This document shows, piece by piece, positions 1 to 20,833 of a stretch of 23,229 nucleotides of DNA (its first letter is position 1; the number at the start of each line of letters is the position of its first letter). This stretch comes from a virus. Where the stretch lies: IMG/VR virus record IMGVR_UViG_3300044911_001715, positions 1-23,229 of that record; one strand, given 5' to 3'. The position numbers were made by a program, and so were the translations under genes. The notes beneath the pieces are model-generated. The model was not told where the DNA came from. It made no database searches and saw nothing but the letters and a program-made list of their open reading frames with translations.

Positions 1-290
1 ATTAGCAGTAGTTGCTGTAGTTGCTGTACCTGTTAAGTTTCCAGTAAAACTAGAAGCAGTTATAATACCAGAAGTATTAATATTAATAGTAGAACTTACG
101 TTATTGGCAGTAGTTGCAGTAGTTGCAGTAGTTGCAGTAGTTGCTGTTCCAGTAAGATTTCCTACAAAAGTAGTAGCAGTTATAATACCTGAAGTATTAA
201 TATTAATAGTAGAACTTACGTTATTTGCAGTGGTTGCTGTTCCAGTAAGACTTCCTACAAAACTAGAAGCAGTTATAATACCTGAAACTC
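1..290 (-). repeat. Fibre repeat block, gene at the left edge
   Basis: Three imperfect copies of a DNA module of about 85-120 bp begin near 56, 176 and 266. Each contains the core gcagttataatacc followed by gaagtattaatatt and then gtagaacttacgttatt (plus-strand reading). On the coding strand they encode NNVSSTININTSGIITA with the linker SSF.GNLTGTATTA. The same core recurs at about 1322 and 1850 in this gene and at 3527-3840 in the neighbouring fibre gene. Confidence 0.85.
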
Positions 291-2655: not shown

Positions 2656-2668
2656 CGGTCTTTTTAGT

Positions 2669-2676
2669 TATTTATG
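2669..2676 (-). promoter_or_regulatory. Possible T4-type late promoter, CATAAATA
   Basis: The minus strand reads CATAAATA in the 66-base gap before the fibre gene starting at 2655. T4-like phages use TATAAATA, and cyanomyoviruses a relaxed NATAAATA, as the late promoter -10 box. Transcription would start about 8 bases before the ATG, which is a very short leader. In an AT-rich genome such 7-mers also occur by chance, so only the intergenic position supports this call. Confidence 0.4.
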
Positions 2677-2721
2677 AATTGAGAACTAAGCATACCGAAA
2701 AACATAATATAAGTTTCAGTA

Positions 2722-4404
2722 TTAGAGTAAGGTATTTCTTGCAAATCTATAAGTCGTCAATCCACTAATATCAGTTTGTGGAGTTGCTTGAAGAATGCAA
2801 TTTCCTCCACTAATTGTTGCTCCAATAGAAACAATCAATGAATTATTATAAACTACTGCATACTCAGAAGAATATGCAGTAGATTGGTCTTGTGTTACGA
2901 GAACCTTCTGTGCCTGAATATAAGAACCAAAACCAATATGAACTGTATATTCAGCAACCTTAAAGTCAGTAGAAGAGACAGAAAAACTATCTATTGTTGT
3001 GGAAACCCCAACAGACGCATCAAATGTTCCAACTCCAGTTTTTACTCCATAAGTCTCAACTTGAAGTGGTGTTCTTGGATTTGTGGTTCCAATACCCAAA
3101 CTTCCACTTGATGGAATATAGGTTAATGTGCTACTTACTAAATTAGATGTTATAGTGCCACTAGTGGCACTTACAAACCCAATATATTGAGGAGCAGTTG
3201 TAGAAGAAGTTGATACTGTATTGGATAACAAATCAGTTAGATTGGAACCAGAACCAGAAAATGAAGTAGCAGTAACAGTACCAGTAAAGTTACCATCACC
3301 AACAACGTGAAGTTTTGATGACGGATTTGTAGTTCCAATGCCAACAGAACCATTGAAGTATCCACCACTCTCCACTTGAAGTGCTTGTGTTGCAGTTCCT
3401 GTTGTAGTTGCTCTCCCTACTAGTATTGGACCATTTGCAAATGTAGAAAGTCCTATGACAGATATAGTATTAAATGATTGACCTGTTGTTGAAATATTAC
3501 CTACTAAATTTCCATAAAATGTGGAGGCAGTTATAATACCTGAAGTATTAATATTGATTGTAGAACTTACGTTATTGGCAGTAGTTGCTGTACCAGTAAG
3601 ATTACCAGTAAAACTAGAGGCAGTTATAATACCTGAAGTATTGATACTAGCAGTTGTAGAGAAACCAAGAGCAGTAGTTGCAGTGGTTGCTGTACCAGCA
3701 AGATTACCAGTAAAACTAGAGGCAGTTATAATACCAGAAGTATTGATATTAATAGTAGAACTTACGTTATTTGCAGTGGTTGCTGTAGTTGCTGTACCAG
3801 TAAGATTACCAGTAAAACTAGAGGCAGTTATAATACCAGTAAATCTTGCATTACCTACTACATCTAGTGGCACTGTTGGTTGTGTGGAACCTATACCAAT
3901 ATTTCCACTCAAATATACAAAGTCAGATGCCCCTGCTAATAGTCCATTACTTGCCTTATATGATATTGAATTTACATTTCCTGGTCCAACTAAATCCGTT
4001 ACGGTAATTCTAACTGTTGCAATACCAGTTTGTTGCGTTACTGCTGCACCAACAAAATCTACTGTTACCCCAGTACCAACAAAATTAAACTTATTAAAAC
4101 TATTTGCGGCACCAACCTGAATACTGTTATTAAATACTGTAAAAGAACCAGGAATTAATCCACCACCAGACAATTGAGAAGAAGCAACCCAATATCTTTT
4201 CCCAGTATTTTCACTATTAGAAATTAAAACATATTGAGTTCCAGCAATTGGAGCAGGATTTGCACCAATAGAAGAAATACCAACTAATGGGTCTCCCAAA
4301 TCTGGTTCTGCTTGGTCTAAACCCAAAAATTCATAACGGTCTGTTGTAAGACCAGTTTGTGATTTCTTTTTAACTCTCTTGCTGAGAAATCCTGGAGTTG
4401 CCAT
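2722..4404 (-). CDS. Tail fibre-like structural protein, 560 aa
   Basis: A modular fibre protein. Residues 1-115 form a non-repetitive N-terminus (MATPGFLSKRVKKK, then a 'DRYEFLGLDQAEPDLGDPLVG' segment) that probably attaches it to the virion. Residues of about 160-300 carry a 'GIGSTQPTVPLDVVGNARF' head and three to four 'NTSGIITASSF.GNL.GTATTA' repeats. A second 'GIGTTNPSSKLHVVGDGNF' head follows at about 345, then a C-terminal globular-looking domain from about residue 455 (ASVGVSTTIDSFSV to SGLTTYRFARNTLL). That last domain type recurs at the ends of cyanomyovirus fibres and may be the tip. Only 7 bases separate it from the 120-aa gene upstream, so the two are cotranscribed. Its repeats are near-identical in DNA to those of the next fibre gene. 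The exact T4 counterpart is unknown. Confidence 0.85.
   Translation of the reverse strand: MATPGFLSKRVKKKSQTGLTTDRYEFLGLDQAEPDLGDPLVGISSIGANPAPIAGTQYVLISNSENTGKRYWVASSQLSGGGLIPGSFTVFNNSIQVGAANSFNKFNFVGTGVTVDFVGAAVTQQTGIATVRITVTDLVGPGNVNSISYKASNGLLAGASDFVYLSGNIGIGSTQPTVPLDVVGNARFTGIITASSFTGNLTGTATTATTANNVSSTININTSGIITASSFTGNLAGTATTATTALGFSTTASINTSGIITASSFTGNLTGTATTANNVSSTININTSGIITASTFYGNLVGNISTTGQSFNTISVIGLSTFANGPILVGRATTTGTATQALQVESGGYFNGSVGIGTTNPSSKLHVVGDGNFTGTVTATSFSGSGSNLTDLLSNTVSTSSTTAPQYIGFVSATSGTITSNLVSSTLTYIPSSGSLGIGTTNPRTPLQVETYGVKTGVGTFDASVGVSTTIDSFSVSSTDFKVAEYTVHIGFGSYIQAQKVLVTQDQSTAYSSEYAVVYNNSLIVSIGATISGGNCILQATPQTDISGLTTYRFARNTLL
3519..3845 (-). repeat. Fibre repeat block, four module copies
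   Basis: Copies of the gcagttataatacc module begin near 3527, 3620, 3722 and 3826. Two carry the full gtagaacttacgttatt half, and the others are variants (ttgatactagcagttgtaga type). The spacing is irregular (roughly 93-104 bp) because linker triplets such as gttgctgta are repeated a variable number of times. This is the clearest evidence of module duplication within one gene. Confidence 0.85.
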
Positions 4405-4411
4405 TTATCTA

Positions 4412-4774
4412 TTATTGATTTGAGGTTTCAAGAACACTTGTAATAAACTTAAGTTTTGCTGGGGTCGTACTTGCACTTCCACTGATTGTAATAAAATCAC
4501 CAGTTTCCAATACCAATTTACCAGGTAATAGATTTACTGTATCGTTTGCTGGAATGTAAAAATCTTTTACTATTTCTGTGGTTACAGTTGAACCAGAACT
4601 TACACGATTATGATACCAACTAATTGATTGAGTGCTAGTACTAATATTAGCACATTGAGCTAATAAAAATACTCCAACATATCCTGCGGGTGCTGTGTAA
4701 ACAATATCAGTTGTCAACCCAACAACTTTGGTATATGTTTTAAAATTATTTACTGCTGCTGCCGCAATTGCCAT
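4412..4774 (-). CDS. Small virion structural protein, 120 aa
   Basis: This 120-residue, mostly beta protein starts MAIAAAAVNNFKTYTKVVG. The pattern 'VYTAPAGYVGVFLLAQCANIS' and 'FYIPANDTVNLLPGKLVLETGDFITI' reads like a compact beta-sandwich. I associate this with small structural or fibre-accessory proteins encoded among cyanomyovirus fibre genes, but no biochemical role is known to me. It has the strongest Shine-Dalgarno sequence seen upstream of a start in this window, suggesting high copy number. It lies between two fibre genes with gaps of 15 and 7 bases, so it is part of the fibre operon. Confidence 0.75.
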   Translation of the reverse strand: MAIAAAAVNNFKTYTKVVGLTTDIVYTAPAGYVGVFLLAQCANISTSTQSISWYHNRVSSGSTVTTEIVKDFYIPANDTVNLLPGKLVLETGDFITISGSASTTPAKLKFITSVLETSNQ

Positions 4775-4781
4775 TTCTAAT

Positions 4782-4791
4782 ACTCCTCCTT
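4782..4791 (-). promoter_or_regulatory. Strong ribosome binding site for the 120-aa gene
   Basis: The minus strand reads AAGGAGGAGT with suitable spacing before the ATG at 4774. It overlaps the stop codon of the upstream fibre gene at 4790-4792. Most other starts in the window have only weak purine runs, so this site stands out and fixes the start of the small structural gene. Confidence 0.8.
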
Positions 4792-7700
4792 AATCTGATA
4801 GTGCAAGAATAAATGGTGTCATAGTAGTGAATAGTGCTTTTGTAAAATCTCTACCTGATATTTGACCTGTTGATTGGTTAATCACAACACCATCACCAAT
4901 ATTAAAATTACCTGATTGGTCTGTACTCGTATAAGTTACAGTTCCACCGTCAATTTGAACTACTTTATTTTCAGGGATTACAACACCACCAAGAGCAGGT
5001 TTTGCTGTAAAAATGTTTGTACCAGCACCAACGTATTCGAATGAAATTGTGGATGCGAGTTGTAAACTTCCCCTTGCAAAATATACAGTTGTTCCAGCAC
5101 TAACTGTATTATTTAGTGTCTGTAAAAATGAGACCGTAGAAATACCAGAAGAAGGTAAAGTCGCAGAAGAAACCTTATAATAAATTGGTTGATAATTAGA
5201 AACAGAAGCAGTTGCTGTTGTTCCTGCACCTGCTGGTCCTGCAATTGTAACTGTTACTCCAGAATTCAAATATTGAGAACCAGAATTTAAAACATTAATT
5301 TCAGTGACTGAACCATTTACAACTGTTGCTGATGCTTGTGCTGCAACTCCATTTGGTCCAGTTGGGTCACTAATCGTAACAGTTGGTTGTCCAGTATAAC
5401 CAGAACCACCATTATCTACTTGAATAGTATTAATATTATAATATAAAGTTCCAAAGTAGCAAGATTGACCGTCATAAGGACGATTGGTTCCAACACCAGA
5501 AATCGTAATTACATTTGACCTCGCTGCTGCCTCTGTTGTTGCGGTTCCAGTGTAACGATAAATGGACTTTGTTGTATTGTCACCAACACCGACTGAATAA
5601 AGACCATAATTACCAAATGATGAGTTGGAGTTGGTAATATCACACTGTCCTCCAGATGCAGTGTAAATTGCAATATCATCACAAATAGTAAAGATGGAAA
5701 CTAATTGTGCGTATCCACCATTTGTAATCGAAACACCAATTCCACCTTGATTGTATTGAGTATAACTATCAACACTCATCGAACCAGTTACACCAATATC
5801 AGTTTGGTCTCCTGGTTCTGCTGCAAATCCATCAACTTTGAGACCAATACTATTTGCAATAAAGTTAGTGCAGTTACGAATATAAGGTCCTTTATCAATA
5901 TTTCCAACTCCTGGAGAGAATGATGGGTCATTTTCGACTGATGTGCCAAGACCCGAATTTCCAGGATATGTCGTATTAATTCCCACACCAAGGACACTTA
6001 AACCTTGATTGATAATTGTTGTAACTACACCAACACAGGAGTAAATTGCCGATACAACATTCGCACAACCACTTAGACTTTCATTGCCGTATGCACCATC
6101 AGGTTGCATACTTAAATCTTTTACTTGAGTATAATACGTTTGATAATTTCCACCACTTGTTTTTGCAAAAGAAACATTATTAATGCAAGACCTTGCAATT
6201 CCAGCAGCATAATTTAGTGCATCAATTGTTTCTGTCTTAAATCCAACAATGTTTTGAAGTGCCCCTTCTGCAGTGTAGTATGATTTTCCTGCTCCTACAC
6301 ACTTGGAATTTCCACCTCTTGTGATATCGTGAGACACTGCTTTCAGTGCAGACTTGACACCTTGTTTAATTGTACTTATTCCAGTATTGAATACTGGATT
6401 TTTATAATCTGTGCTTGTTAAATATCCAACAGTTTCATCTGCAATGAAATCAAGATTTAGTCTAATCAATCTTGCCGCATCAAAAAATCTATCACTTGCA
6501 ACACCAGACAGTGGAACAAATGATACAACTGATGCATTATTAGTTGCGGGAGCACCATTAAAACTTAGGTTAGTTATATGACAACCATTATTTACATAAA
6601 ATAAGTCTAGACCTGAAGATTGTGGAGTTACAATACAGTTGCGAAGTTCTGTTCCTTGAACGGAAACATTTGCTGCTAATGTGATAGGATTATTTTCAAC
6701 ATAAGTTCCAGGGAAAACCTTAATTGTATCTCCAGGTAATGCAAGTGCTGCTGCTGCTTTGATTGTTCTTTTTGCGTCACTTTCCACTAATCCAGTGTTT
6801 GTATCACTACCTTCAAAAGCAACGTAAATTGTTTTACCAATTGAAGTTTTGATTCCAACTTGAACTGTTCCTTTTCCAACTGCTTGAGAAGACGTTAAAG
6901 TGAGACCAGTTCCTACTGTGAGTTGAGTTACAATGCCAACTAAATCAATTCCACTTCCAGAAAAGAAAGATGCAGTAGCAATGCCAACAGAATTTAATTG
7001 ACTCACATTGGCAGTGCCAAGAGTTGTAATTCCTGTTGCTCTTAAATTAGTAACAGAGGCAATACCACCAATAACATTAGTTGCCGTTGTTGCTGTTGAT
7101 GCTTGAGAATCACCAGTAATGCTAATATTATAAGTTCCAGATAATCTTGCTGGGTCTATGATTCCAGTCGTTATATTTGCCGCATCGGCAAGGTTTGTAG
7201 CAGTTGTAGCAGTACCAGTTAAATTTCCACTAAATGTAGTCGCAGTGAGTATACCTGTACTAATATTAATTTGATTTATGGTCGCAATACCAATATAAGC
7301 ATTCGTAATTGAAGAAAAACCAATAGTTGCAATTCCAATACTTGCAATTCCAGTATTGATTTCGTCTAAAGTCGTAAGTTGTAATGCTCTAAGATAATCA
7401 ACAGTCAAATTAGTAATACTAGCAGTATTAATACCTGATAATGTATTTGCTGTTAAAATTCCAACATTTGCATTTGGTGTCGAAATGCTGGATGCCGTTA
7501 AAAATCCTACAGTGGAAATTCCAGAAACATTAGTATTGGTTGCATTCAAAAATCCTATGGTAGCAATTCCAATCGAAGAGAATGTGATTGTAGAATACCC
7601 AATTGTTGCAGTATTGGTTACTGTTAGATTTGTAACTGATGTTACACCTAAAGTAGAAAATCCAGTAATGTTTAAACTTGTTCCAGTAACATTGCCACCA

Positions 7701-8233
7701 GAAAGATTTATAGCAGTAGTGGCAGTTGCTGCATTTCCAGTAATATCAACAGCATAAAGACCTGGTGCTAAATTATAAGAAGTTGCAGCAGAAGAAACAT
7801 TAATATCATATGTTCCAGATAATCTTGATGGATCTATAGTTCCACTAAGAATGTTTGCCGCATCATTTAAATATGTTGCTCGATTTGCTCGACCTTCAAT
7901 ATTAATATCATAAGTATTACCATTTAATCTATCACTACTAATAAATCCAGAAGTTATATTTGCAGCATTCGTAAGTATATTTGCACTATTTACATCAATT
8001 CCATAATAACCAGATAATCTAGAAGAACTAATTGTTCCAGTAGTTATATTTGCAGCATCGTTTAATGTGTCTGCACTCGTTGCGTTCCCTTGGAGAGTTC
8101 CAACAAACTTACTTGCGGTTATAGTTGTAGCACCAACAATACCACTTCCTTGGAGATTTAAATTATCACCAGAAGCCAACTCCTCAATTTGTTTAGATGT
8201 TGGATTGGCTATAAGTGGAAATCTGTCCGTCAT
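4790..8233 (-). CDS. Large tail fibre/tailspike-like protein with pectin-lyase-like region, 1147 aa
   Basis: The N-terminus MTDRFPLIANPTSKQIEELA resembles other cyanomyovirus fibre starts. Residues of about 30-450 contain repeated blocks of the type 'AANITTGIIDPARLSGTYDI.I.G.A..AT' (five or more copies) and 'IGIATIGF' triads. From about residue 465 the segment 'KTIYVAFEGSDTNTG...RTIKAAAALALPGDTIKVFPGTYVENNPI' is a typical entry to a right-handed parallel beta-helix of the pectin-lyase-like class, running to about 840. At about 935-1010 there are two 'GGSGYT..PTVTI..P.G.....A.A.VVNGSVTEI' repeats like those in the gp5-like hub. The end (GDGVVINQSTGQISGRDF...) is unique. It is probably a host-binding fibre or spike. 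Whether the beta-helix has enzymatic activity cannot be read from the sequence. Confidence 0.85.
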   Translation of the reverse strand: MTDRFPLIANPTSKQIEELASGDNLNLQGSGIVGATTITASKFVGTLQGNATSADTLNDAANITTGTISSSRLSGYYGIDVNSANILTNAANITSGFISSDRLNGNTYDINIEGRANRATYLNDAANILSGTIDPSRLSGTYDINVSSAATSYNLAPGLYAVDITGNAATATTAINLSGGNVTGTSLNITGFSTLGVTSVTNLTVTNTATIGYSTITFSSIGIATIGFLNATNTNVSGISTVGFLTASSISTPNANVGILTANTLSGINTASITNLTVDYLRALQLTTLDEINTGIASIGIATIGFSSITNAYIGIATINQINISTGILTATTFSGNLTGTATTATNLADAANITTGIIDPARLSGTYNISITGDSQASTATTATNVIGGIASVTNLRATGITTLGTANVSQLNSVGIATASFFSGSGIDLVGIVTQLTVGTGLTLTSSQAVGKGTVQVGIKTSIGKTIYVAFEGSDTNTGLVESDAKRTIKAAAALALPGDTIKVFPGTYVENNPITLAANVSVQGTELRNCIVTPQSSGLDLFYVNNGCHITNLSFNGAPATNNASVVSFVPLSGVASDRFFDAARLIRLNLDFIADETVGYLTSTDYKNPVFNTGISTIKQGVKSALKAVSHDITRGGNSKCVGAGKSYYTAEGALQNIVGFKTETIDALNYAAGIARSCINNVSFAKTSGGNYQTYYTQVKDLSMQPDGAYGNESLSGCANVVSAIYSCVGVVTTIINQGLSVLGVGINTTYPGNSGLGTSVENDPSFSPGVGNIDKGPYIRNCTNFIANSIGLKVDGFAAEPGDQTDIGVTGSMSVDSYTQYNQGGIGVSITNGGYAQLVSIFTICDDIAIYTASGGQCDITNSNSSFGNYGLYSVGVGDNTTKSIYRYTGTATTEAAARSNVITISGVGTNRPYDGQSCYFGTLYYNINTIQVDNGGSGYTGQPTVTISDPTGPNGVAAQASATVVNGSVTEINVLNSGSQYLNSGVTVTIAGPAGAGTTATASVSNYQPIYYKVSSATLPSSGISTVSFLQTLNNTVSAGTTVYFARGSLQLASTISFEYVGAGTNIFTAKPALGGVVIPENKVVQIDGGTVTYTSTDQSGNFNIGDGVVINQSTGQISGRDFTKALFTTMTPFILALSD

Positions 8234-11644: not shown

Positions 11645-13827
11645 ACACAATCTATTACCGATGTTACAATTCCAGAAATTGATGTTGCTGTTGCTGTTTG
11701 ATTAACTGTATTATAAGTTGGGGTAAACTTCATAAGTGGAACAACATTTGCAGCAACTCCTGTTCTGGTATTTATAGTTAATGTTGGTGTCGTCTTAAAT
11801 CCACCAATTGAATTTATTACTGGTTTTATTCCAACAATCGCACCAGAACCAGGAGTAACTATTGGAGTGTAAGTATTTGTACCATCCGTGATTGTATCGC
11901 CAGAGGTATAACCATATCCAGGGGCAATTACAATTATATCTTGAATACCCCCAGATACATCACTGCTTATTCCAGAACTTACAGTTGAACCAACACCAAC
12001 ATTTGTATAATTTCCAGGACAATATCCAGAACCAATATCAGTCAAATATATTGAAGATACAGTACCAGCAGCAGATATAATTGCCTTTGCTTGTGCTCCA
12101 CTTCCGTGTCCTGTATTATCTACAACTACAACTGTTGCTTTAGTATATCCAACTCCACCACTCTTAATGTCAAATGAAAGTATTGAACCAGTTTCATCTA
12201 CAATTGGAGTAGCACTTGCACCTACACCATCACCAACAATTCTTGCGATTGGTGGAATGCATCTTTTGTATTTTGACCCAATTGGTAGTGGGACAATATC
12301 TTCTTGAGTTGTTGGATTGATTACCTTTTCGTTACATTGACTAAATGCATTATTAGATACTCCAGTTATTCCAGCATAAAGTGGAGTTTCACCAAAAGCA
12401 GATTCAATTGATCCCAACCCATCACTTACACCTTTAAATACATTTACATCATCAACCATTTTTTGCCAATTGTCTGCATCTTTTTCACTTGGTCCAAAAT
12501 TAGCAGACCATACACTTGGAGTTTCACAAGCAAGACCAGTACATTCAAGAAAACTAAAAATTTGTGATGCTAATGAACTTGCTTGATTTAAAATACCAGA
12601 TACAGTTGAAAGACCACCAGTCAACCAACCAATTCCAGACATAATTGTGGAAAGTGCTTCTTCAATACTATCCATCACTTTTGCTAAAACTCCAGCAGTC
12701 CATTTCTCCACAGCACAAACTGGTGCATTGATTGTATTTGCTGCTAAATCACCAAGCAATCCTTCAATATAATCAATAATACCACCAGGGAGTTTTTCAA
12801 GAATACAAAAAATTACATCTAATGTTTTTTTCATCACCTCCAAAACAATTGTTTGTTGTGGAGGAGGAACAACCAATCCTACAAGTTTTCTAAATGCCCA
12901 AACAATACATTTGAAAATTGTATTTCTTAAATTGTTAATTATTAATTTTACAATTCCACCAATTTGTCTAGCACAATTTCTAATTGAATTTCCAATATCT
13001 ACAATTTCATTTAATATTGGGTCAATATAAGTACCCAAATACTGGTCCAATCCATTTGTAACCGCAATAAAATCTTGAAGTCCTTGCGTGATTTGACCGA
13101 TTAAATTGTTTTGACAACCATTTGGTTTTATAAATGCGGGTTGTTTTGTAAACGCTGCTCCAATAGCATTCGTTGAAGAAGCAGGAATATTTTTAAATAC
13201 TCCTGCAATTTTGTCTCCCAATTGTGGTGTAACTGGAACTCCATCAATATTGAACCCAAGGTCGGTGGTGTAAGCAAGATTTACTAAATCTTTTGGGACT
13301 GGTGTGGTTTCTTTTGGTGAGTTATTTGGGTCTGCTTGGTCTATTTCCTTCTCACCTCTAATATTTCTTTGCGTACTTGGTGGATTATTTCCAGGGTGCC
13401 CTGTAAATGGTTTAAATTGAGAACTTCTTTCTTTTTTAACTACATCTTCTGTTTGTAAATTCTTAACTCCATCACTACGATACAACAAACCAATAACTAC
13501 AGGTTGTTGCCCGTCATCTCCATCTAGGAAGAAACCAAAACAAGTTTCTCCACCCTTGAGATTTATTGTTCCTCCAATTCCACCTTGTGCGCTTCCAAAA
13601 GAAGGGTCAAGCATGATTTGAGCCCAAGGCAAATCATCATCTGCTAAAATATTTCCATCAAAAGAATGATGCCCTACAATTCTTACTTTGCATCGTGCGG
13701 ACCAATCTCCTTGATTGGAAAATTGAGAACCTTTTTCCCAAGTATCCTTTTTAGCAACTTGTCCTATCCACCAACTAAAACCATCTTTTCCAATATAATT
13801 GGATTTTAATAAAGCCTCTTCAATCAT
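11641..13827 (-). CDS. 5: Baseplate central hub protein, gp5-like, lacking lysozyme domain, 728 aa
   Basis: Residues of about 1-118 form an OB-fold-like domain as in gp5/VgrG (DTWEKGSQFSNQGDWSARCKVRIVG...DDDLPWAQIMLDP...GETCFGFFLDGDDGQQPVVIGLLY), the part that sits on gp27 and crowns the spike. T4 gp5 has a T4-lysozyme domain next. I see no lysozyme motifs here. Instead, residues of about 240-470 are very hydrophobic amphipathic helices with several cysteines (IGGIVKLIINNL, FKCIVWAFRKLVGLVVPPPQ, FSFLECTGLACE). From about 525 there are repeats of the form 'GGVGYTKATVVV.D..G.G..A.A.I...G.V..I.LTDIGSGY'. The needle is in the next gene. It overlaps the 69-aa gene by 8 bases at its start. Confident as a gp5-type hub by the OB domain and context. 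Confidence 0.8.
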   Translation of the reverse strand: MIEEALLKSNYIGKDGFSWWIGQVAKKDTWEKGSQFSNQGDWSARCKVRIVGHHSFDGNILADDDLPWAQIMLDPSFGSAQGGIGGTINLKGGETCFGFFLDGDDGQQPVVIGLLYRSDGVKNLQTEDVVKKERSSQFKPFTGHPGNNPPSTQRNIRGEKEIDQADPNNSPKETTPVPKDLVNLAYTTDLGFNIDGVPVTPQLGDKIAGVFKNIPASSTNAIGAAFTKQPAFIKPNGCQNNLIGQITQGLQDFIAVTNGLDQYLGTYIDPILNEIVDIGNSIRNCARQIGGIVKLIINNLRNTIFKCIVWAFRKLVGLVVPPPQQTIVLEVMKKTLDVIFCILEKLPGGIIDYIEGLLGDLAANTINAPVCAVEKWTAGVLAKVMDSIEEALSTIMSGIGWLTGGLSTVSGILNQASSLASQIFSFLECTGLACETPSVWSANFGPSEKDADNWQKMVDDVNVFKGVSDGLGSIESAFGETPLYAGITGVSNNAFSQCNEKVINPTTQEDIVPLPIGSKYKRCIPPIARIVGDGVGASATPIVDETGSILSFDIKSGGVGYTKATVVVVDNTGHGSGAQAKAIISAAGTVSSIYLTDIGSGYCPGNYTNVGVGSTVSSGISSDVSGGIQDIIVIAPGYGYTSGDTITDGTNTYTPIVTPGSGAIVGIKPVINSIGGFKTTPTLTINTRTGVAANVVPLMKFTPTYNTVNQTATATSISGIVTSVIDCV

Positions 13828-14029
13828 CGTAAATTCTACACTCCAGTGCGTGTGGGTTTAAGTCACAAAATAATTCTAATGTACTTGGAATACCAACAGC
13901 ATCAGGATTGTGCTTTTGATATTCTAAAAGTTCTTCTAGATATGCATTTAAATATCTTTTTCTTTGTACATTTATTGAGGAGTTTTGTAATTCCTCACAT
14001 ATATCGTTGATAAATTCTTGCAATTCCAT
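13820..14029 (-). CDS. Small conserved-looking protein between hub genes, 69 aa
   Basis: I do not recognise this gene. It encodes a small acidic, helical protein (MELQEFINDICEELQNSS, KRYLNAYLEELLEYQKHNPD) with three cysteines. It has a convincing ribosome binding site (AAGAGA just before the ATG at 14029), starts 5 bases after the gp27-like stop, and overlaps the gp5-like start by 8 bases. This tight coupling argues that it is real and made together with the gp27/gp5 hub. It may be an assembly factor or chaperone for hub assembly, purely from position and size. Confidence 0.7.
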   Translation of the reverse strand: MELQEFINDICEELQNSSINVQRKRYLNAYLEELLEYQKHNPDAVGIPSTLELFCDLNPHALECRIYDD

Positions 14030-14034
14030 TTCTC

Positions 14035-15324
14035 TTATTTATTTGAACTATAAAGACCGTAACTATCACGAATCAGTCTCAAACTTGTAACCATTTGTCC
14101 ACCTTCAAAATGATGTCTTAATTCTTTGATTAAATAATATCCACTTTGCTCTTCATCTGAAGTCATATTTGTATTTCTATCTATTCGTGGAAACTCTGCG
14201 TGAATAATTCCACCTACTTTCAAATTTACATTACAAGGAACAACCATATTTAGTGCTTGTGTAAACAATAAATTGTATCTAGAGTATGACATTGCCATAT
14301 CAGCACCACTTCTCAATCTATCACTTACCGAACCATCTGATTTCAAAGAACCTCTATCTGATGTTCTTACCATAATACGAGAAATACTATCACCAAATTC
14401 ATCAGATACAGCAATACTTTCAGCACCACCCAATTTACTCTTAACTTGGTCTTTTACTTTATAAGTATATAAATCCAAAGTATTGGAATACAAATCATAA
14501 AAATAAGTCTTATTTACATACATACCAACTCTTAATGATTTCATTAAGTCAATATTCTTTTCATAATTATAATTCAATATATTAAAATTAGTTTTTGTCT
14601 GATTTTCCTCAATTACTTGTGTAAAAAGATAATATGGTATATTTTCTTTATCGGCACTATTATTTTGTATTTTTGTGCTTGAGACTAAACTATCAATACT
14701 TCTAAAATTAAATCCATCTTTGTTTTCATAAAATAAGAAACCAGCAGTTCCTCTTGCTTCTTCACCAGCAGTTCCAGAATTTTGTCCGTTTGCTGGAACT
14801 GCTTTTGGTCCCAACCAAGTTAAAACGTGAAATGGTTTGCGATTGTTTCCGATAAAAGAATAATCATTTGATGTTTGTTCTATATTTTCAGTTTTATACT
14901 TTTTAGTTTTTAAGTCATCTTTGAGTATTTTTGTTACAGTATTTTGTAAATTTCCTCTATAAATTGTCTGACACCTTGAAGTTTCATTTGTTAATCCTTC
15001 ACGAGAAACAAGATGTAAAGTGAACATTTCTCTTTTTTTCTGTGCATCAAGATTGCTGACTTTATAAACATATAAGTCATCCAATACAAATTCACCAAAA
15101 GCAGTATCAACACTAATTGTAACTTTTTCTCCACCACGAATTGGTAAGATATTAAACAAGGACGAACTATTCATCAGTTCTGCAATAGCAGTCACACAAG
15201 GAGATAAAATATCCTCAAAATAATCAAAGAACAAACAAGAGTTTGTAACATCAACAGTTGTACTACCATCCAAAGATTGAATAGTAAAATAATTCGGTTT
15301 AAAGGATGCTACTGATGCTGCCAT
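14035..15324 (-). CDS. 27: Baseplate hub protein, gp27-like, 429 aa
   Basis: The N-terminal half (FKPNYFTIQSLDGSTTVDVT, FFDYFEDILSPCVTAIAELMN, LPIRGGEKVTISV, VLDDLYVYKVSNLDAQKKREMFTLHLVS) has the strand pattern of the first tube-like barrel of gp27/gpD hub proteins. A conserved-looking segment at about 130-165 (NTVTKILKDDLKTKKY, SFIGNNRKPFHVLTWLG) is typical of this family. The C-terminal part (NVNLKVGGIIHAEFPRI, GYYLIKELRHHFEGGQMVTSLRLIRDSYG) matches the second barrel. The length compares with 391 residues for T4 gp27. It should form the trimeric platform joining tube to gp5 spike. It is coupled by TAATG to the M23/amidase gene upstream and followed by the 69-aa and gp5-like genes. Confidence 0.78.
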   Translation of the reverse strand: MAASVASFKPNYFTIQSLDGSTTVDVTNSCLFFDYFEDILSPCVTAIAELMNSSSLFNILPIRGGEKVTISVDTAFGEFVLDDLYVYKVSNLDAQKKREMFTLHLVSREGLTNETSRCQTIYRGNLQNTVTKILKDDLKTKKYKTENIEQTSNDYSFIGNNRKPFHVLTWLGPKAVPANGQNSGTAGEEARGTAGFLFYENKDGFNFRSIDSLVSSTKIQNNSADKENIPYYLFTQVIEENQTKTNFNILNYNYEKNIDLMKSLRVGMYVNKTYFYDLYSNTLDLYTYKVKDQVKSKLGGAESIAVSDEFGDSISRIMVRTSDRGSLKSDGSVSDRLRSGADMAMSYSRYNLLFTQALNMVVPCNVNLKVGGIIHAEFPRIDRNTNMTSDEEQSGYYLIKELRHHFEGGQMVTSLRLIRDSYGLYSSNK

Positions 15325-17408
15325 TACGTTGCGGAAAGATTGGTGAGTAACATTGTTTTCATAAGACTATTTACCACTTGACCTTCAGTTGGTCCAGGCA
15401 TAATCACAGTTCCACCACCTCCACCTCCTCCAACAGGAATGAAGACTGGTTTTTGTCCTCCACCACCTCCACCCATCATTATAGGCATAATCACAGAAGC
15501 ACCACCACCTGGTTGATTATATGATGGATAATTACTCATTTGATTTATTAACCCTTGTTTATACATCTCAAGCATTTTTGGGTCTGCTTCTGGTCCACCT
15601 ATTCCAGGTTTCTTCGAAGCATCCATTATTGCTTTAATTCTGGAGAGATTTGAATTTGGATCACTTGCTTCATTTGCAATAATAGATTTGTGATACATTA
15701 CATTTAATCCTTGTGCCTTTGCTAATTTTTCTACCAATTCCGCAGTTTTCAAATTATATTCTTTTTCTCCAGAAGCACCAGTTTCACCTTTTGTTACATC
15801 AGCGTGTCCTGCAAAAATATGATATGCTCGTTTAGGATCTTTCATCATTGCTTCAACTATTCTTTTTGCATTTGCTTCAGCACCTAATGCCATATCTGAT
15901 TCTAAAATATTTCCACCTCGATTTGTAACACCCAATCCTCCTCTAAAATTTTTACCATAAGTCCCAAAACTAGAAATAAGTGCTTGAGAAACAGCAGTAT
16001 CTGGACTAGTATTGCTTGGGATTAATCCTGTTTTTTGTCCTTTTGCATTTGGGTCTGCGTGTAATTCTAAAACAAAAGGATTAGAACCTGCTCCCGAAAC
16101 TCCTGCCTTTGGTTTGACTTTTACATTTCCACCAAATCTAAAATACTTATCTCCTTCACTTGTAGGTATTTCTAATCTTTTGCTTCCTTGTCTAACTTCA
16201 AAATGAACGTGTGGTCCAGTAGAACGTCCAGTACTTCCGACATTTCCAATTACAGTTCCAGGTTCTATTTGTTGTCCTTCTTTGACTAATATTTTACTTA
16301 GATGCCCATAAAAACTACTAGAACCACCAGGATGAGCAACTTGTACGGCATATCCATACCCACCATCATTAAATTGTGCGTAGGTTACTTGACCTGGTTG
16401 AATCACACTTACTGGGGTTCCTTCCGTAATAGCATAATCAACACCACTATGAATTCTTCCCCATCTCCAACCATAAGGAGATGAAGTATATTTGCTGGGC
16501 ATTTGACCACCTTCGGCAGTCATATCTGGAAGTTCTCCTGAAATTTCAGGAGCATCTGGAACTGAATCTGGATCTAAACCATAATCCAACATCATTTCAT
16601 CAGAACCAGCAGCAGATGATGCAGCATTCACAACTGAAGCAAATGATTTATAAATAAATTCTTCAAATTTTCCAACCGATTTGTCGAATTTAGATATAGA
16701 ATCAGAAAGAGAACCAGAATCACTAGTAAGTGCTTTTTGTTTTTCTTCTTGTCCTTTTAATCTTTTGGCAAGTTTTTGTTTAAGAGAACTTCCACCTTCA
16801 TAAAGTCTATCTGCAGCAAATCCACCAAGAAAACTACCAGCTATATTTCCAACAACAAAACCAAGTCCTGGAATAGGAATGAGTGCTTGACCGATTGCTC
16901 CACCAAGCAATCCACCAGCAAGTGCTCCACTTGTTCCTGCTGCTGCTTTTCCTACACTTTCACCTTCTGCAAGACCAGTCGCAAAATCAAGTCCAGCAAA
17001 TAGTGCATTACCAACACCAACTGCCCTCATACCACCCAATTTTAATTTTGGTCCTCTAAGTGTTGGTTTTGGTGGTTTTATATTTGATGGTCTTTGTGGT
17101 TTTCCAATCTTCCCTCTTCCAGGAAACATATTACCAACAAATCCACCAAGGTCTAATGCTCCACTAAACAAAGAACCTAATAGATTTCCTGGTTTTCCAA
17201 AATTACTTGCAATATTTAAACTTGCAAGTGCTTTTATTTTCTTCTTGTCTGGTAGTTTTAATTTTTCTAATGACCTTTTTTCTACTTCTAAAAATTTACC
17301 AAAATTAATATATTCACGTTGAAACTTTGATAAAGAGTTTGACCTTGAACCAAGAGAAACAATATTATTTGCTGCAGCAACTAAAGGAGAGGAAAGTGTT
17401 TTTTTCAT
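15324..17408 (-). CDS. Tail protein with M23 endopeptidase and amidase-like domains, 694 aa
   Basis: Residues 1-300 are a helical, Lys-rich region with a long Gly/Ala membrane-like stretch at about 150-200 (GTSGALAGGLLGGAIGQALI, GFVVGNIAGSFLGGFAAD). Residues of about 305-430 are a complete M23/LytM peptidase with H320 and D324 (HSGVD), H369 (FYGHLS), and H400 and H402 (GPHVHFE), which would cleave peptide cross-links. Residues of about 445-625 resemble an Amidase_3-type N-acetylmuramoyl-L-alanine amidase, with H450 (LELHAD), E503 (RGGNILE), H535 (AGHAD) and E548 (GEKEYNL), but in permuted order. The end is Gly-rich with 'VIMPIMMGGGGGGQ'. It is coupled by TAATG on both sides. Probably it is an injected or tail-lumen protein that digests the host wall locally. 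Whether it acts as a gp29-type tape measure is uncertain. Confidence 0.82.
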   Translation of the reverse strand: MKKTLSSPLVAAANNIVSLGSRSNSLSKFQREYINFGKFLEVEKRSLEKLKLPDKKKIKALASLNIASNFGKPGNLLGSLFSGALDLGGFVGNMFPGRGKIGKPQRPSNIKPPKPTLRGPKLKLGGMRAVGVGNALFAGLDFATGLAEGESVGKAAAGTSGALAGGLLGGAIGQALIPIPGLGFVVGNIAGSFLGGFAADRLYEGGSSLKQKLAKRLKGQEEKQKALTSDSGSLSDSISKFDKSVGKFEEFIYKSFASVVNAASSAAGSDEMMLDYGLDPDSVPDAPEISGELPDMTAEGGQMPSKYTSSPYGWRWGRIHSGVDYAITEGTPVSVIQPGQVTYAQFNDGGYGYAVQVAHPGGSSSFYGHLSKILVKEGQQIEPGTVIGNVGSTGRSTGPHVHFEVRQGSKRLEIPTSEGDKYFRFGGNVKVKPKAGVSGAGSNPFVLELHADPNAKGQKTGLIPSNTSPDTAVSQALISSFGTYGKNFRGGLGVTNRGGNILESDMALGAEANAKRIVEAMMKDPKRAYHIFAGHADVTKGETGASGEKEYNLKTAELVEKLAKAQGLNVMYHKSIIANEASDPNSNLSRIKAIMDASKKPGIGGPEADPKMLEMYKQGLINQMSNYPSYNQPGGGASVIMPIMMGGGGGGQKPVFIPVGGGGGGGTVIMPGPTEGQVVNSLMKTMLLTNLSAT
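15610..16075 (-). other. Amidase-like domain in circularly permuted order
   Basis: In canonical Amidase_3 domains the order is GHxx (first zinc ligand), E in 'EK..NL', SIHAN (third ligand), then a catalytic Glu near the end. Here the order along the protein is the LELHAD His450, RGGNILE Glu503, AGHAD His535, GEKEYNL Glu548, then a helix with 'NLSRIKAIMDA' that would normally precede the SIHAN strand. All expected residues are present, but the two halves are exchanged. This is inference from motif order. Confidence 0.55.
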
Positions 17409-19147
17409 TATCCGTCAACGATATTATAAACCATTCTAGAATAAAGAACCAAGAAATTATCAGGATTTCCTGCTGGTAAAAATGGAACTGATGGTCCACT
17501 CCCTTGTGAAGGTGGAGGACCACTCATTCCACCTCCTCCTGATTGTTGTTGTCCTCCACCACCCAAATTAATCGGCATTATAATAGGTTGTTGTTGCTGT
17601 TGTGATGGTGGTGGTTGAGAAACAGTTGTGGCAGAAAGTTTCAATTCTTCTCTTTTCTGCGGTGAAAGCATCAAATCTGGCAAATCTGGACCACCCACTC
17701 CAGGTTTTGGTGTTGGTGATGGTAATACTGGTGCTGGTGGTGCTCCAGAAACTGCTCCTTGTTTAGATTGTTCCAATGCTCTCAAATATTGCTCATTAGT
17801 AACTTGAGCCTTATTTCTAACTGCCGCACTATCATTCCAAGTATAACCTGTTCTTGGGTTTGGAACTGCTCTATATTGTTGTGCAATTGCTGCACCAAAA
17901 TCTTCTTTTGACATTTCACCTTTCACATACTTTCCATATCCAAGTTGATTTAAATGGAACAAATGTAATTGTTTTTGTACTTCTGGTGTAAATTTTGTTT
18001 TAGTTGGATCAATTCCCATTTGTTTTGCCAAACCCTCTGCTGTTTCTGGCATAAATTGATATGCTCCAACTGCACCAGAACTATTGGGGTATTTTGAAAT
18101 ATAAGATCTAAGATTACTTATATTCGTATCCAATATTTTGGGGTCTCCTTTACCTAAGTCAGCATTATAAGCATCAAATCTTCCCCCAGTTTCTGCACCT
18201 GCAACAAAAGATGCCAATCCTTCTATTCCAGGTCCTCCCATTAAATTTGGATTTGGACTAGGACCACCAGGACTAGGACCACCAGGACTTCTCGATCCAC
18301 CTCCTCCACCACCAGGAGATCCTTTTGGTTTATCTTTTTGCGTTTTAAACATCGCACTGATTGCATTTGCAAATCTATCAACAATTGAAGAAAACTTATC
18401 AACAACATCCCCAGGAATTTCTGGGGATGTCTGTGCTGCTTGTGCTTGGTCTTGTGGACTATCAGAGAGTGCATTTACCGCACCAGCACCAAGAGCACCA
18501 AGTCCTAATGCACCAGCACCAAGAGCAAGCATTTTGCCTTTTCCACCCATCATTCTCTGAAGTCCTCTTGGTGCAGATTTCCTCAATCCACCACCAGGAA
18601 TATCAACATCGAGATTTAATCCTCCACCACCAGAAGGTGAAGCAACAGGAAGATTAGATAATTGTTTTACAATTTTGATTATAACTTGACGAATTAATTT
18701 TGCAACCTCAAAACTTTCAGTAAATGATTTTTTAAGTACCTCTAAATTATCTCTTACTTTATTAATATTTTTTTTATTACCAAAAAAGTTTATAAAACCT
18801 AAAGCAGTCTTATAAAAATTTAAAAACTTACCAAGAATACCAATTGGTTTTGCATCATCTACTTGTTTCAATCGTCTTTGATAATCAGCAGAAAATCCCT
18901 GAAGAGTTTTGTTAATTACATTCGTTACATTATTATTAATATTTGTGGTTATTGTGCTTACAATATTATTAACTACTGGAGCTGCTGGTTGAACTCCTGC
19001 TCTTTGAAAACCTACAATTTTATTTGCAGCACCATTCACAACAGAAGCACCAAGTATAGAACCACCTGAAATAAAGTTCTGTGCTGCTACTTTATTTGTA
19101 TTCTGTCTTCCTATTACTTTTTCTGGACTAAGAACAGAACTAACCAT
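17408..19147 (-). CDS. Tail protein with lytic transglycosylase-like domain; tape-measure candidate, 579 aa
   Basis: Residues 1-180 are helical with amphipathic segments (FLNFYKTALGFINFFGNKKN, VAKLIRQVIIKIVKQLSNL). A Gly/Ala hydrophobic segment lies at about 205-230 (MLALGAGALGLGALGAGAVN). A Pro/Gly linker leads to a lysozyme-like lytic transglycosylase fold at about 305-440 with candidate catalytic E319 (FVAGAETGGRF) and the family signature SGAVGAYQFMPETA at 357-370. It would cut the glycan backbone. The C-terminus is Gln/Pro/Gly-rich with 'QPIIMPINLGGGGQQQ', echoing the neighbouring hydrolase. It comes directly after the gp26/gp51-type chaperone pair, the usual place of a tape-measure gene, so it may be the gp29 counterpart. 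The ATG overlaps the 59-aa ORF by 8 bases and its stop overlaps the next start (TAATG). Confidence 0.8.
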   Translation of the reverse strand: MVSSVLSPEKVIGRQNTNKVAAQNFISGGSILGASVVNGAANKIVGFQRAGVQPAAPVVNNIVSTITTNINNNVTNVINKTLQGFSADYQRRLKQVDDAKPIGILGKFLNFYKTALGFINFFGNKKNINKVRDNLEVLKKSFTESFEVAKLIRQVIIKIVKQLSNLPVASPSGGGGLNLDVDIPGGGLRKSAPRGLQRMMGGKGKMLALGAGALGLGALGAGAVNALSDSPQDQAQAAQTSPEIPGDVVDKFSSIVDRFANAISAMFKTQKDKPKGSPGGGGGGSRSPGGPSPGGPSPNPNLMGGPGIEGLASFVAGAETGGRFDAYNADLGKGDPKILDTNISNLRSYISKYPNSSGAVGAYQFMPETAEGLAKQMGIDPTKTKFTPEVQKQLHLFHLNQLGYGKYVKGEMSKEDFGAAIAQQYRAVPNPRTGYTWNDSAAVRNKAQVTNEQYLRALEQSKQGAVSGAPPAPVLPSPTPKPGVGGPDLPDLMLSPQKREELKLSATTVSQPPPSQQQQQPIIMPINLGGGGQQQSGGGGMSGPPPSQGSGPSVPFLPAGNPDNFLVLYSRMVYNIVDG

Positions 19148-19319
19148 TTTGTTGTTGCTGCTGTTTTAATTTTTCTTCTTCAATATGTTGCTGTAAAAGT
19201 GCTAAGTAGATGTCCCTTTCCCAGGGCATCATATTTTCAATCTCAGTTAATGAATATTTATGGAACTGCATCAAGGCAAAATTAATTCTAAAATATGACT
19301 CTAGTTCCATATGAGCCAT
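19140..19319 (-). CDS. Tail assembly chaperone extension (T-like), 59 aa, probably expressed by -1 frameshift
   Basis: This ORF, MAHMELESYFRINFALMQFH to KQQQQQNG, contains 'YSLTEIENMMPWERDIYLALL', a motif I associate with the small partner of gp26/gp51-type proteins. It starts 2 bases after the stop of the gp26/gp51-type gene, in the -1 frame relative to it, and has no ribosome binding site before its ATG (or before Met4 at 19310). A slippery heptamer at 19328-19334 would join it through Arg-Leu-Ser to the upstream protein, giving a product of about 303 aa. It overlaps the transglycosylase gene by 8 bases. Termination-reinitiation (TAA-GT-ATG) is the alternative mode of expression. Confidence 0.8.
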   Translation of the reverse strand: MAHMELESYFRINFALMQFHKYSLTEIENMMPWERDIYLALLQQHIEEEKLKQQQQQNG

Positions 19320-19321
19320 AC

Positions 19322-20050
19322 TTAACCGAAAAAAGATGTCAATCCCTCCAACGTAACTTCACTTTCAATTTTAGTTTTTGGATTTGTAACTTTTACGGTA
19401 TGAGAAAGTCTAGGCATCGTATCAAAGAACTTCTCAATTTCCTTAAATTGATTTGAGTTTAAGGTTTCAATCCAATCAGTCAATTCTTTTTTAGTAGAGT
19501 CCGCAGCAGACCAACTTTCCTCTGCGTTAAAAATAACATCAATACAAGAAGTGATTACATCAAAAGACCTTTCAATACTTGATGAACTTTGTTCTGCACT
19601 AAAGTCAAAATTAGTTTTAATGAACTGGTCTAATGAAGGATACTTCATTCTCAAAACCAAATCAGAATCAAGATGAATATCTGTGCTATGTTCTGGGTCT
19701 TTTTGAACTTCAATTTGGTCGATAAACACTGTAACTGGAACTTGTGTTTCTCCATCATCACCACAAGTTATAATCAAGTCAAGACTTTCTCCAACTGACT
19801 TACCACGAACATTTAAGAAAATATATTCAATATCAAAAGTGGGTAGTTCTTCTACTTTAATTCCTTTTGTTAAAATGCAATCTTTTAATACTTGCTTGAT
19901 TGCATTTGTAATTTCTTTTGTGCTTTGACTTTCAAGAGCAAGAATTAATATCTTTTCTTCTTTGACTAGAAATGGTCTGTATTTAATTGTTTTTCCAGTT
20001 GATGGTAAAACCAAATCATACGTTGGTGTAGAAATCTTAGGTAATGGCAT
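19322..20050 (-). CDS. Baseplate hub assembly protein / tail chaperone, gp26/gp51-type, 242 aa
   Basis: The N-terminus MPLPKISTPTYDLVLPSTGK followed by 'IKYRPFLVKEEKILILALES' is characteristic of the T4 gp26/gp51-type baseplate protein family. The middle holds 'LTDWIETLNSNQFKEIEKFFDTMPRL' and the end 'VKVTNPKTKIESEVTLEGLTSFFG', which resembles the gpG side of siphophage G/GT tail chaperones. In T4 the family members act in hub assembly. The position between a tube-like gene and a tape-measure candidate suggests that it guards the tape measure during tail assembly. The last three sense codons (TTT TTC GGT) carry the slippery site. An AATAAATA box precedes it, overlapping the upstream stop. Whether it equals T4 gp26 or gp51 is not decided. 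Confidence 0.8.
   Translation of the reverse strand: MPLPKISTPTYDLVLPSTGKTIKYRPFLVKEEKILILALESQSTKEITNAIKQVLKDCILTKGIKVEELPTFDIEYIFLNVRGKSVGESLDLIITCGDDGETQVPVTVFIDQIEVQKDPEHSTDIHLDSDLVLRMKYPSLDQFIKTNFDFSAEQSSSSIERSFDVITSCIDVIFNAEESWSAADSTKKELTDWIETLNSNQFKEIEKFFDTMPRLSHTVKVTNPKTKIESEVTLEGLTSFFG
19328..19334 (-). other. -1 ribosomal frameshift slippery heptamer T_TTT_TTC
   Basis: In the frame of the 242-aa gene the codons are TCT TTT TTC GGT TAA. The heptamer T TTT TTC fits the X XXY YYZ rule, so both tRNAs can re-pair after slipping back one base. Reading then continues CGG TTA AGT ATG into the 59-aa ORF. It ends four bases before the zero-frame stop. Confidence 0.75.
19344..19349 (-). promoter_or_regulatory. 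Internal Shine-Dalgarno-like frameshift stimulator GGAGGG
   Basis: The coding strand contains TTGGAGGGATT within Leu-Glu-Gly-Leu codons. The GGAGGG ends 9 bases before the slippery heptamer, close to the spacing of the dnaX stimulator in E. coli. It is 24 bases from the next ATG, too far to serve as its ribosome binding site. A G-rich run is unusual in this AT-rich sequence. Confidence 0.6.
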
Positions 20051-20071: not shown

Positions 20072-20079
20072 TATTTATT
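20072..20079 (-). promoter_or_regulatory. Likely T4-type late promoter, AATAAATA
   Basis: The minus strand reads AATAAATA, overlapping the stop of the tube-like gene. Initiation would fall near 20066, giving a leader of about 16 bases before the ATG at 20050. It may serve the chaperone, hydrolase and hub operon. Confidence 0.45.
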
Positions 20080-20833
20080 TGTCTAATGTACCGTAATTCT
20101 TTTCCATTACATATCTTGTATACTGGAAAGTGACTGTTGTTTTTACAATTTGACTTCCCTCATAAGTTAAAGGCATCGCAGTGATATTTGTTGGGAATGC
20201 TTCAATCATTCTATAAGTTAAATGTGGTGGGAATTTTACATTATTTGGGTTTGAACTATCAAAATTTCTCTCAAACTTTGTAAGTGATATAATTCTCTTA
20301 TAGTCATCTGGGTATCTAAAACGAAAGAAATCTGTCTTTTCTTTTCCAGGACCATCTCCCTGTCCTCTTGGACTTGGTGGCAATAGACCAGTCCCAGCAT
20401 ATAACGGATTGATATAATTCATCCATTCTTCAAAAAGACGAATTAAATTATATTCATTATCAACATAAAAAGTCATCGTAAATTCTGGAAAAATTCTTCT
20501 CGTTGGAAATCTTTCAATCGTTCCCTGACGACTTCCCATTTCTTCCGTTACATCAAACTGAACTCCAGGAATAACTGCTTCCGCACAATAAAAATCATAG
20601 ACATAATTTTTTGTTTGATTTGCAGTAATAACATTCGAATTACGCAACCAACTCATCAATCCACTTCCACCAGCATCAACATTTGTTAAATGTAATGATA
20701 CTTTAAATTGACTAGTAAGAGATAAATTACCAAAAATATCTCTTGCTGAGGGCATTCCATTTGTTGGAGCACCTTCCGTCATCTTAAGGTAAAATGGTCC
20801 TATACGCGGAGACCCTCTATCTGGAGCAGCCAT
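20075..20833 (-). CDS. 54: Tail tube-like baseplate protein, probably gp54 tube initiator, 252 aa
   Basis: The sequence 'SARDIFGNLSLTSQFKVSLHLT', 'DFYCAEAVIPGVQFDVTEEMG', 'IERFPTRRIFPEFTMTFYVDNEYNLIRLFEEWMNYI' and 'YRMIEAFPTNITAMPLTYEGSQIVKTTVTFQYTRYVM' is the strand-and-helix pattern of the T4 tube-protein superfamily (gp19, gp54, gp48). A tube protein (gp19) would normally sit beside the sheath gene. Here the neighbours are gp48-like (divergent) and hub genes, so the tube initiator gp54 is preferred, although at 252 residues it is shorter than T4 gp54 (320). It should start the tail tube on top of the baseplate with gp48. The ATG at 20833 is the first minus-strand gene after the divergent promoter region. 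Confidence 0.72.
   Translation of the reverse strand: MAAPDRGSPRIGPFYLKMTEGAPTNGMPSARDIFGNLSLTSQFKVSLHLTNVDAGGSGLMSWLRNSNVITANQTKNYVYDFYCAEAVIPGVQFDVTEEMGSRQGTIERFPTRRIFPEFTMTFYVDNEYNLIRLFEEWMNYINPLYAGTGLLPPSPRGQGDGPGKEKTDFFRFRYPDDYKRIISLTKFERNFDSSNPNNVKFPPHLTYRMIEAFPTNITAMPLTYEGSQIVKTTVTFQYTRYVMEKNYGTLDK

Follow-up and report, generated by a model that had tools for sequence, protein, structure and literature searches.

We found that the gp26-like/gp51-like locus on the minus strand of virus record IMGVR_UViG_3300044911_001715, analyzed here as a 23,229-base fragment (the window), is, as far as sequence can tell, very probably a tail assembly chaperone (TAC) gene of the G/GT kind, with a short form (TAC-N) and a long form (TAC-NC) produced through a -1 ribosomal slip. 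Phage lambda makes its short and long chaperone pair, G and GT, by a -1 slip at the 3' end of a gene between the tube and tape measure genes. In the proposed scheme, most ribosomes would stay in the gp26-like frame and terminate at a TAA codon, giving a short form of 242 residues. Some would pause at the heptamer T_TTT_TTC, with an upstream GGAGGG bound to the tail of the 16S rRNA and a hairpin about 5 nucleotides (nt) ahead, whereupon two Phe-tRNAs would shift their pairing from TTT_TTC to TTT_TTT, and continued reading in the -1 frame would add RLSMAHMELE... to yield a long form of 303 residues. If the lambda analogy holds, the tape measure protein would be coated by many short and few long copies, which would recruit tube subunits and then leave. 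The occurrence of slippage, its rate and the chaperone function are what we infer from the evidence given below.

Layout of the junction

The gp26-like gene (19322..20050; all features of the locus are on the minus strand), encoding the predicted short form, matched PF12322 (E 8.7e-71) and columns 5-232 of phrog_150. Its 3' end reads GGAGGG-N9-T_TTT_TTC-GGT-TAA, with the zero-frame codons TCT TTT TTC GGT TAA, such that a Shine-Dalgarno (SD)-like GGAGGG (19344..19349), the predicted stimulator, lies 9 nt 5' of the slippery heptamer (19328..19334), which is followed by the zero-frame stop TAA (19322..19324). Re-reading of the sequence agreed with the coordinates, the phase and the 9-base spacing given in the first-pass annotation of this DNA, except that the gap between heptamer and stop is three bases (GGT) instead of four. 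The -1-frame extension of 62 residues plus stop (19140..19328), forming the C-terminal part of the predicted TAC-NC, includes the gp51-like open reading frame (ORF) of 59 residues (19140-19319), which matched phrog_634 (E 5.5e-28) and columns 239-280 of phrog_150 (E 1.2e-6). The ATG of this ORF (19319-19317) is in the -1 frame, 2 nt past the zero-frame stop and with no intervening stop. Translation through the -1 slip gave the fusion of about 303 residues with an SFF-RLS junction that had been proposed earlier (303 residues, ...LTSFF-RLSMAHMELE...), and the junction peptide predicted for the window is ...GLTSFFR / LSMAHMELESYFR. The window's 18 main ORFs, 7679 codons in all, contain a single in-frame T_TTT_TTY, the one at the junction, and the combination of GGAGG and heptamer at the junction spacing was found once in the window and never in 100 shuffles. 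As a separate observation, TTTTTTY was depleted across the whole window, with 19 occurrences against a shuffle mean of 43.

Conservation of the slippery heptamer

The first comparison set consisted of the best 80 of at least 600 viral contigs with a gp26 relative. A readable stop was present in 79 of these (the contig without one, L016, was dropped) and a recognizable gp51 part in 77, always in the same phase. This set was enlarged with further contigs and 12 named records, and identical gp26 proteins were merged, leaving 239 distinct sequences, window included; owing to the choice of queries, most of them are cyanophage-like. Close to the 3' end, T_TTT_TTY was present in frame in 234 of the 239 (220 with TTC and 14 with TTT), or in 69 of 73 after clustering at 70%, and the first six bases of the heptamer showed no variation in a per-site analysis of the relatives. 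A length of 57-69 residues was seen for 228 of the 229 complete -1 extensions, five of the 234 having been excluded from the length counts for incomplete extensions; the sole exception was S-SCSM1. Conservation of heptamer and phase, which the first-pass annotation had proposed to examine and whose absence in close relatives it had held to speak against its claim, was thus what we found.

The conservation concerned the nucleotides and not only the protein. The codon 5' of TTT TTY was AGT in 108 sequences, TCT in 60, GAT in 49, GCT in 11, AAT in five and GGT in one (n = 234), so that the residue before the two Phe residues varied (S, D, A, N or G) and yet the last base of its codon was always T. 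Other Phe-Phe pairs in the same genes were encoded as T_TTT_TTY in only 10 of 260 cases, and the conserved Phe pair of an FFxTMP motif was encoded as TTC TTT in 126 of 216. If codons were drawn according to the usage of these genes, a T-ending codon and TTT alone would have a probability of 10^-23 at 70% clustering, assuming independent representatives, which they are not fully.

Two further readings are addressed directly by these results. That the long form would instead derive from RNA polymerase slipping on the T run is very improbable: the T run comprises six bases, or seven in 14 of the 234 sequences, but six T is short for transcriptional slippage, and the SD-like element, the local structure and the fixed codon phase all point to the ribosome. 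A sequencing error or chance motif can be dismissed, being contradicted by conservation of the site in separate isolates and contigs and by its being the sole in-frame copy in the window.

Predicted stimulatory elements flanking the heptamer

An SD-like motif of at least four bases, located 8-10 nt upstream of the heptamer, was present in 216 of the 234 sequences, and pairing with the anti-SD sequence peaked in the 8-nt window beginning 15 nt 5' of the heptamer. In the corresponding LEG motif, Gly was preceded by Glu in 105 of 142 representatives, and this Glu was encoded by GAG, in preference to GAA, in 80 of the 105 (76%), compared with 30% elsewhere (p 1e-22 if independent); the codon of the preceding Leu ended in G in 56%, compared with 28% elsewhere. 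The SD-like element thus goes beyond the demands of the encoded protein.

On the 3' side, the window has a predicted stimulatory hairpin (19292..19322) in which AGTATGGCTC pairs with GAGTCATATT, with a 5' arm at 19322-19313, a loop, and a 3' arm at 19301-19292. It has 9-10 pairs and, as the better hairpin, replaces the weak ATATGG/TCATAT one suggested before. The predicted folding energy was -9.5 kcal/mol, compared with -4.8 under a null of synonymous sequences (P 0.031). When the same protein-keeping null was applied to positions +5 to +50 in the relatives, the mean z was -2.26, with values below -2 in 53% of 140 sequences, whereas eleven other 45-nt windows gave z of -0.05 to -0.77. S-SCSM1 (L082) was excluded from the folding, register and start-SD analyses. 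Local 3' structure would thereby exceed the requirement of the protein code across the family. A universal hairpin, as a separate proposition, was rejected, as detailed below, structure having emerged only when the sequences were folded one by one and compared with the synonymous null.

Coding constraint in the -1 frame and the question of a separate gp51

Mean entropy by codon position, computed on the 142 representatives, was 0.96/0.60/1.48 for positions 1/2/3 of the zero frame before the heptamer and 1.02/0.67/1.45 for the -1 frame at +2 to +169. The periodicity had already shifted directly after the heptamer (1.21/0.70/1.53 for the -1 frame at +2 to +25), although a single-site analysis found the first positions of the first -1 codons to be variable also. 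The extension was conserved when aligned in 26 sequences.

An ATG in the -1 open frame at most 25 nt past the heptamer was found in 144 of the 234 heptamer-bearing sequences, the window among them. A reading compatible with the frameshift, possible but rather doubtful, is therefore that both products are made, with some free gp51 initiated from the internal ATG where there is one in addition to the fusion. The SD sites before this ATG were weak (mean -2.2 kcal/mol; -4 or below in 3% of 68 relatives) and the ATG of the window lies within the 5' arm of the hairpin, which both speak against such initiation, but the SD sites at the gp26 starts of the same 68 relatives were poor too (mean -1.3). 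The missing ribosome binding site of gp51, noted earlier, is weak evidence because of the poor gp26 starts, and we dropped the argument.

That gp26 and gp51 are simply two separate proteins, with translational coupling to the nearby stop letting gp51 begin at an ATG of its own, is quite improbable. Besides the 144 sequences with a close ATG, this explanation can draw on the ATG overlapping the stop in nine named phages (K469, K447, Ps15, Y68, phiM19, W14, ValKK3, Ds23CZ and S-CRM01) and on the two genes annotated in many public records. However, no ATG, GTG or TTG able to start the whole extension, i.e. in the -1 open frame and at most 25 nt past the heptamer, exists in 83 of the 234 sequences (46 of 69 at 70% clustering), yet their -1 frame is under coding constraint. 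In 62 of 141 representatives the first start was located more than 25 nt downstream or was absent, and these 62 kept the periodicity in the -1 frame at +2 to +25 (0.93/0.62/1.30). A separate protein in the start-less lineages would lose conserved residues, and with coding periodicity right after the heptamer, frameshifting is the only obvious route there. Two separate genes would, moreover, leave the invariant T-ending codon and TTT TTY unexplained. In S-RIM2, ACG-2014g and syn9 the annotated gp51 begins at an internal ATG more than 25 nt past the heptamer.

Several observations nevertheless weigh against a frameshifted chaperone gene or against parts of its signal. The heptamer was missing in five of the 239 sequences (Vibrio K469 and K447, Salmonella SFP10, and the T4-type RB9 and R3_1), none of the SD-like motifs sought was found in 18 of the 234, and all sequences are related, so that the p-values do not come from independent events. 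The hairpin of the window was not significant when compared with dinucleotide shuffles (z -0.6 and -1.0); RNAalifold found no consensus fold in 112 ungapped sequences, and at least 8 of 11 pairs in the window's register were present in only 39 of these 112 (10 of 11 in the window), with registers being mixed. The ATG of the window lies only 8 nt past the heptamer, making a separate product of 59 residues possible. S-SCSM1 (3217-3240) keeps the heptamer, but an 11-nt insertion past the zero-frame stop moves its gp51 part to the +1/-2 frame and breaks the -1 path; either a sequencing error or a different route may account for this. Finally, a Foldseek search of the window's gp26 against the PDB gave nothing at E 0.001 (E 0.66), and its fold Z-scores stayed below 8.

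Fold and probable function

An AlphaFold model of the window gp26, built from 68 sequences, had a mean predicted local distance difference test (pLDDT) score of 89.9. The best solved match to its N-terminal domain, using VIA-align, was the HK97 tail assembly chaperone 2ob9 (Z 7.9, root mean square deviation 4.1, 84 residues), followed by 3fgx (Z 7.6) and 3klu (Z 7.2), both of which we take to be TAC-like, before a drop to 4.9. The gp26 profile gave only weak unrelated matches among the sequences of solved structures. Directly upstream of the gp26-like gene is a tail tube-like gene (20075..20833; PF23849 E 3.8e-18, phrog_45 E 4e-35). Because of the match to the HK97 TAC fold and the position after a tube-like gene, the protein most likely serves, in its short and long forms, as a tail assembly chaperone like lambda G/GT. 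The fold match and the one-frame gp51 of T4-type phages, described next, both strengthen the G/GT analogy drawn at the outset.

Relation to T4-type gp26 and gp51

The two parts of the window locus matched the T4 gp26/gp51 family (PF12322, phrog_150/634), and PF12322 is common to the window gp26 and the two T4-type proteins. The gp51 of RB9 (249 residues) matched columns 13-280 of phrog_150, which cover the gp26 part as well as the extension, together with phrog_634, all in one frame, whereas RB9 gp26 (208 residues) matched columns 14-235 only; R3_1 was alike. Across 38 aligned columns, residues 207-244 of RB9 gp51 were 37% identical to the extension (hhalign Prob 50.7, E 1.6e-4). Direct hhalign comparisons with the single RB9 gp51 were moderate (Prob 50.7 and 72.1), and it is the PHROG profiles that carry the case. 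In RB9 and R3_1 the gp26 and gp51 genes lie side by side and divergent, with no extension after gene 26. Judging by the difference in phrog_150 coverage, each predicted product thus has a gene to itself in these two T4-type phages, and phage T4 seems to have replaced the frameshift with two genes. The locus is similar to T4 gp26/gp51 in sharing PF12322 and in that T4-type gp51 carries both parts; it differs from the two divergent genes, without extension, of the two T4-type phages. T4 gp26 and gp51 are hub assembly chaperones, and gp51, though required, does not end up in the particle, according to PMC3004832.

Breadth across phages and exceptions

Among 26 named records, 14 of which lie outside the set of 239, T_TTT_TTY was found in 17, from phages of Synechococcus, Pelagibacter, Desulfovibrio, Aeromonas, Stenotrophomonas, Delftia, Vibrio (ValKK3) and Sinorhizobium. 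The switch posited for T4-like cyanophages is thus, going by its site, not restricted to them. The extension, with translations judged by eye, was in the -1 phase in 23 of the 26, the others being the T4-type pair and S-SCSM1. In Rhizobium Y68 the site reads T_TTT_TTG. Four Ackermannviridae (L089, L265, L266 and L267) lack T_TTT_TTY and instead have G_ATT_TTC, A_ATT_TTC or G_GTT_TTC, with the extension still in -1 and, in three of the four, without ATG, GTG or TTG at its start; the G_GTT_TTC site resembles that of T7 gene 10. In Vibrio K469 (L086, 3223) and K447 (L088, 3172) the heptamer is absent and a TAATG stop-start overlap is present, possibly reflecting a change from frameshift to separate gene. 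With the Desulfovibrio phage as query, no relatives turned up in viral_contigs.

We lean slightly towards the view that the -1 signal, comprising SD-like element, T_TTT_TTY and hairpin, was the ancestral route of T4-like phages to two tail chaperones. The annotated gp51 would then in many lineages be merely the tail of the long form, and the switch would have been lost or rebuilt several times, as two genes in T4-type phages, as ATT_TTC or GTT_TTC in Ackermannviridae and as a TAATG start in some Vibrio phages.

Known systems and prior work

The lambda G/GT pair resembles the present locus in being a short and long form made by a -1 slip at the 3' end, after the tube gene; the N-terminal fold of the window protein, as a difference, matches the HK97 TAC. 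Xu, Hendrix and Duda reportedly described lambda G/GT and other -1 frameshift chaperones in 2004. The Escherichia coli dnaX frameshift signal likewise consists of an SD-like element, a heptamer and a hairpin, but its heptamer is A_AAA_AAG and that of the window T_TTT_TTC. A conserved -1 frameshift with a poly-T motif is also given for the TAC gene of Vandenendeviridae/Andersonviridae in PMC12846349 (2025), in that case with GTTTTT and in other phage families.

To judge by its title, the study of Vladimirov, Gautam and Davidson (2022, Virology 566:9) identified the TAC genes of T4-like phages and suggested a mechanism other than frameshifting. It is cited by PMC12846349 in connection with poly-T slippery sequences of the TAC-N genes in T4-like phages and by PMC10885494 for the presence, in some of these phages, of a short gene and a fused long one, while PMC12859696, PMC12671138 and PMC11131426 only cite it. 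A frameshifted TAC in T4-like phages is thus already known as an idea, and the locus studied here is a further member. No paper on the SD-like element, the hairpin or the start-less lineages was found in literature searches, judging by titles and abstract openings.

The public records examined list this locus as two entries, gp26 and gp51, with gp51 in several of them starting late or lacking a start, and none of the 24 annotated named records (two more carry no annotation) had a joined coding sequence. The first-pass annotation, which considered the switch to be hidden under the two labels, was accordingly right about the split annotation, although, given the title of Vladimirov et al., the switch was not wholly hidden from the literature. 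A gp26 match at E 1e-5 was found in 680 phage records, and joined annotation of the locus could concern hundreds of genomes, by an uncounted estimate. In five public records (L087, L088, which is Vibrio K447, L268, and the Ackermannviridae L089 and L266) the gp51 part was unannotated or annotated only from an internal start.

Neighbouring genes

Downstream of the extension, and overlapping its end by 8 nt, is a weak tape-measure candidate (17408..19147, minus strand). The proposed gene order of tube-like gene, gp26/gp51 pair and tape measure was thus well supported at the tube-like end, while for this ORF the tape measure profile phrog_1272 gave just E 0.00098 and an endolysin profile scored better (phrog_90, E 3.7e-9). 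In HTVC008M a putative tape measure is annotated as the second gene after gp51. The ORF at 17408-19147 and the adjacent one at 15324-17408 (minus strand) had an M23 peptidase domain in one and weak transglycosylase and tape-measure signals in the other, and the two may represent a split tape measure with cell-wall enzymes. Further along, at 13820-14029 (minus strand), the tail gene cluster includes a CP12-domain protein of 69 residues (PF02672, E 1.7e-10), and S-SCSM2R has an annotated CP12 protein in the same order. Large proteins with SGIITASSFTGNLTGTATTA-type repeats are encoded in three ORFs at 1-8233 (minus strand).

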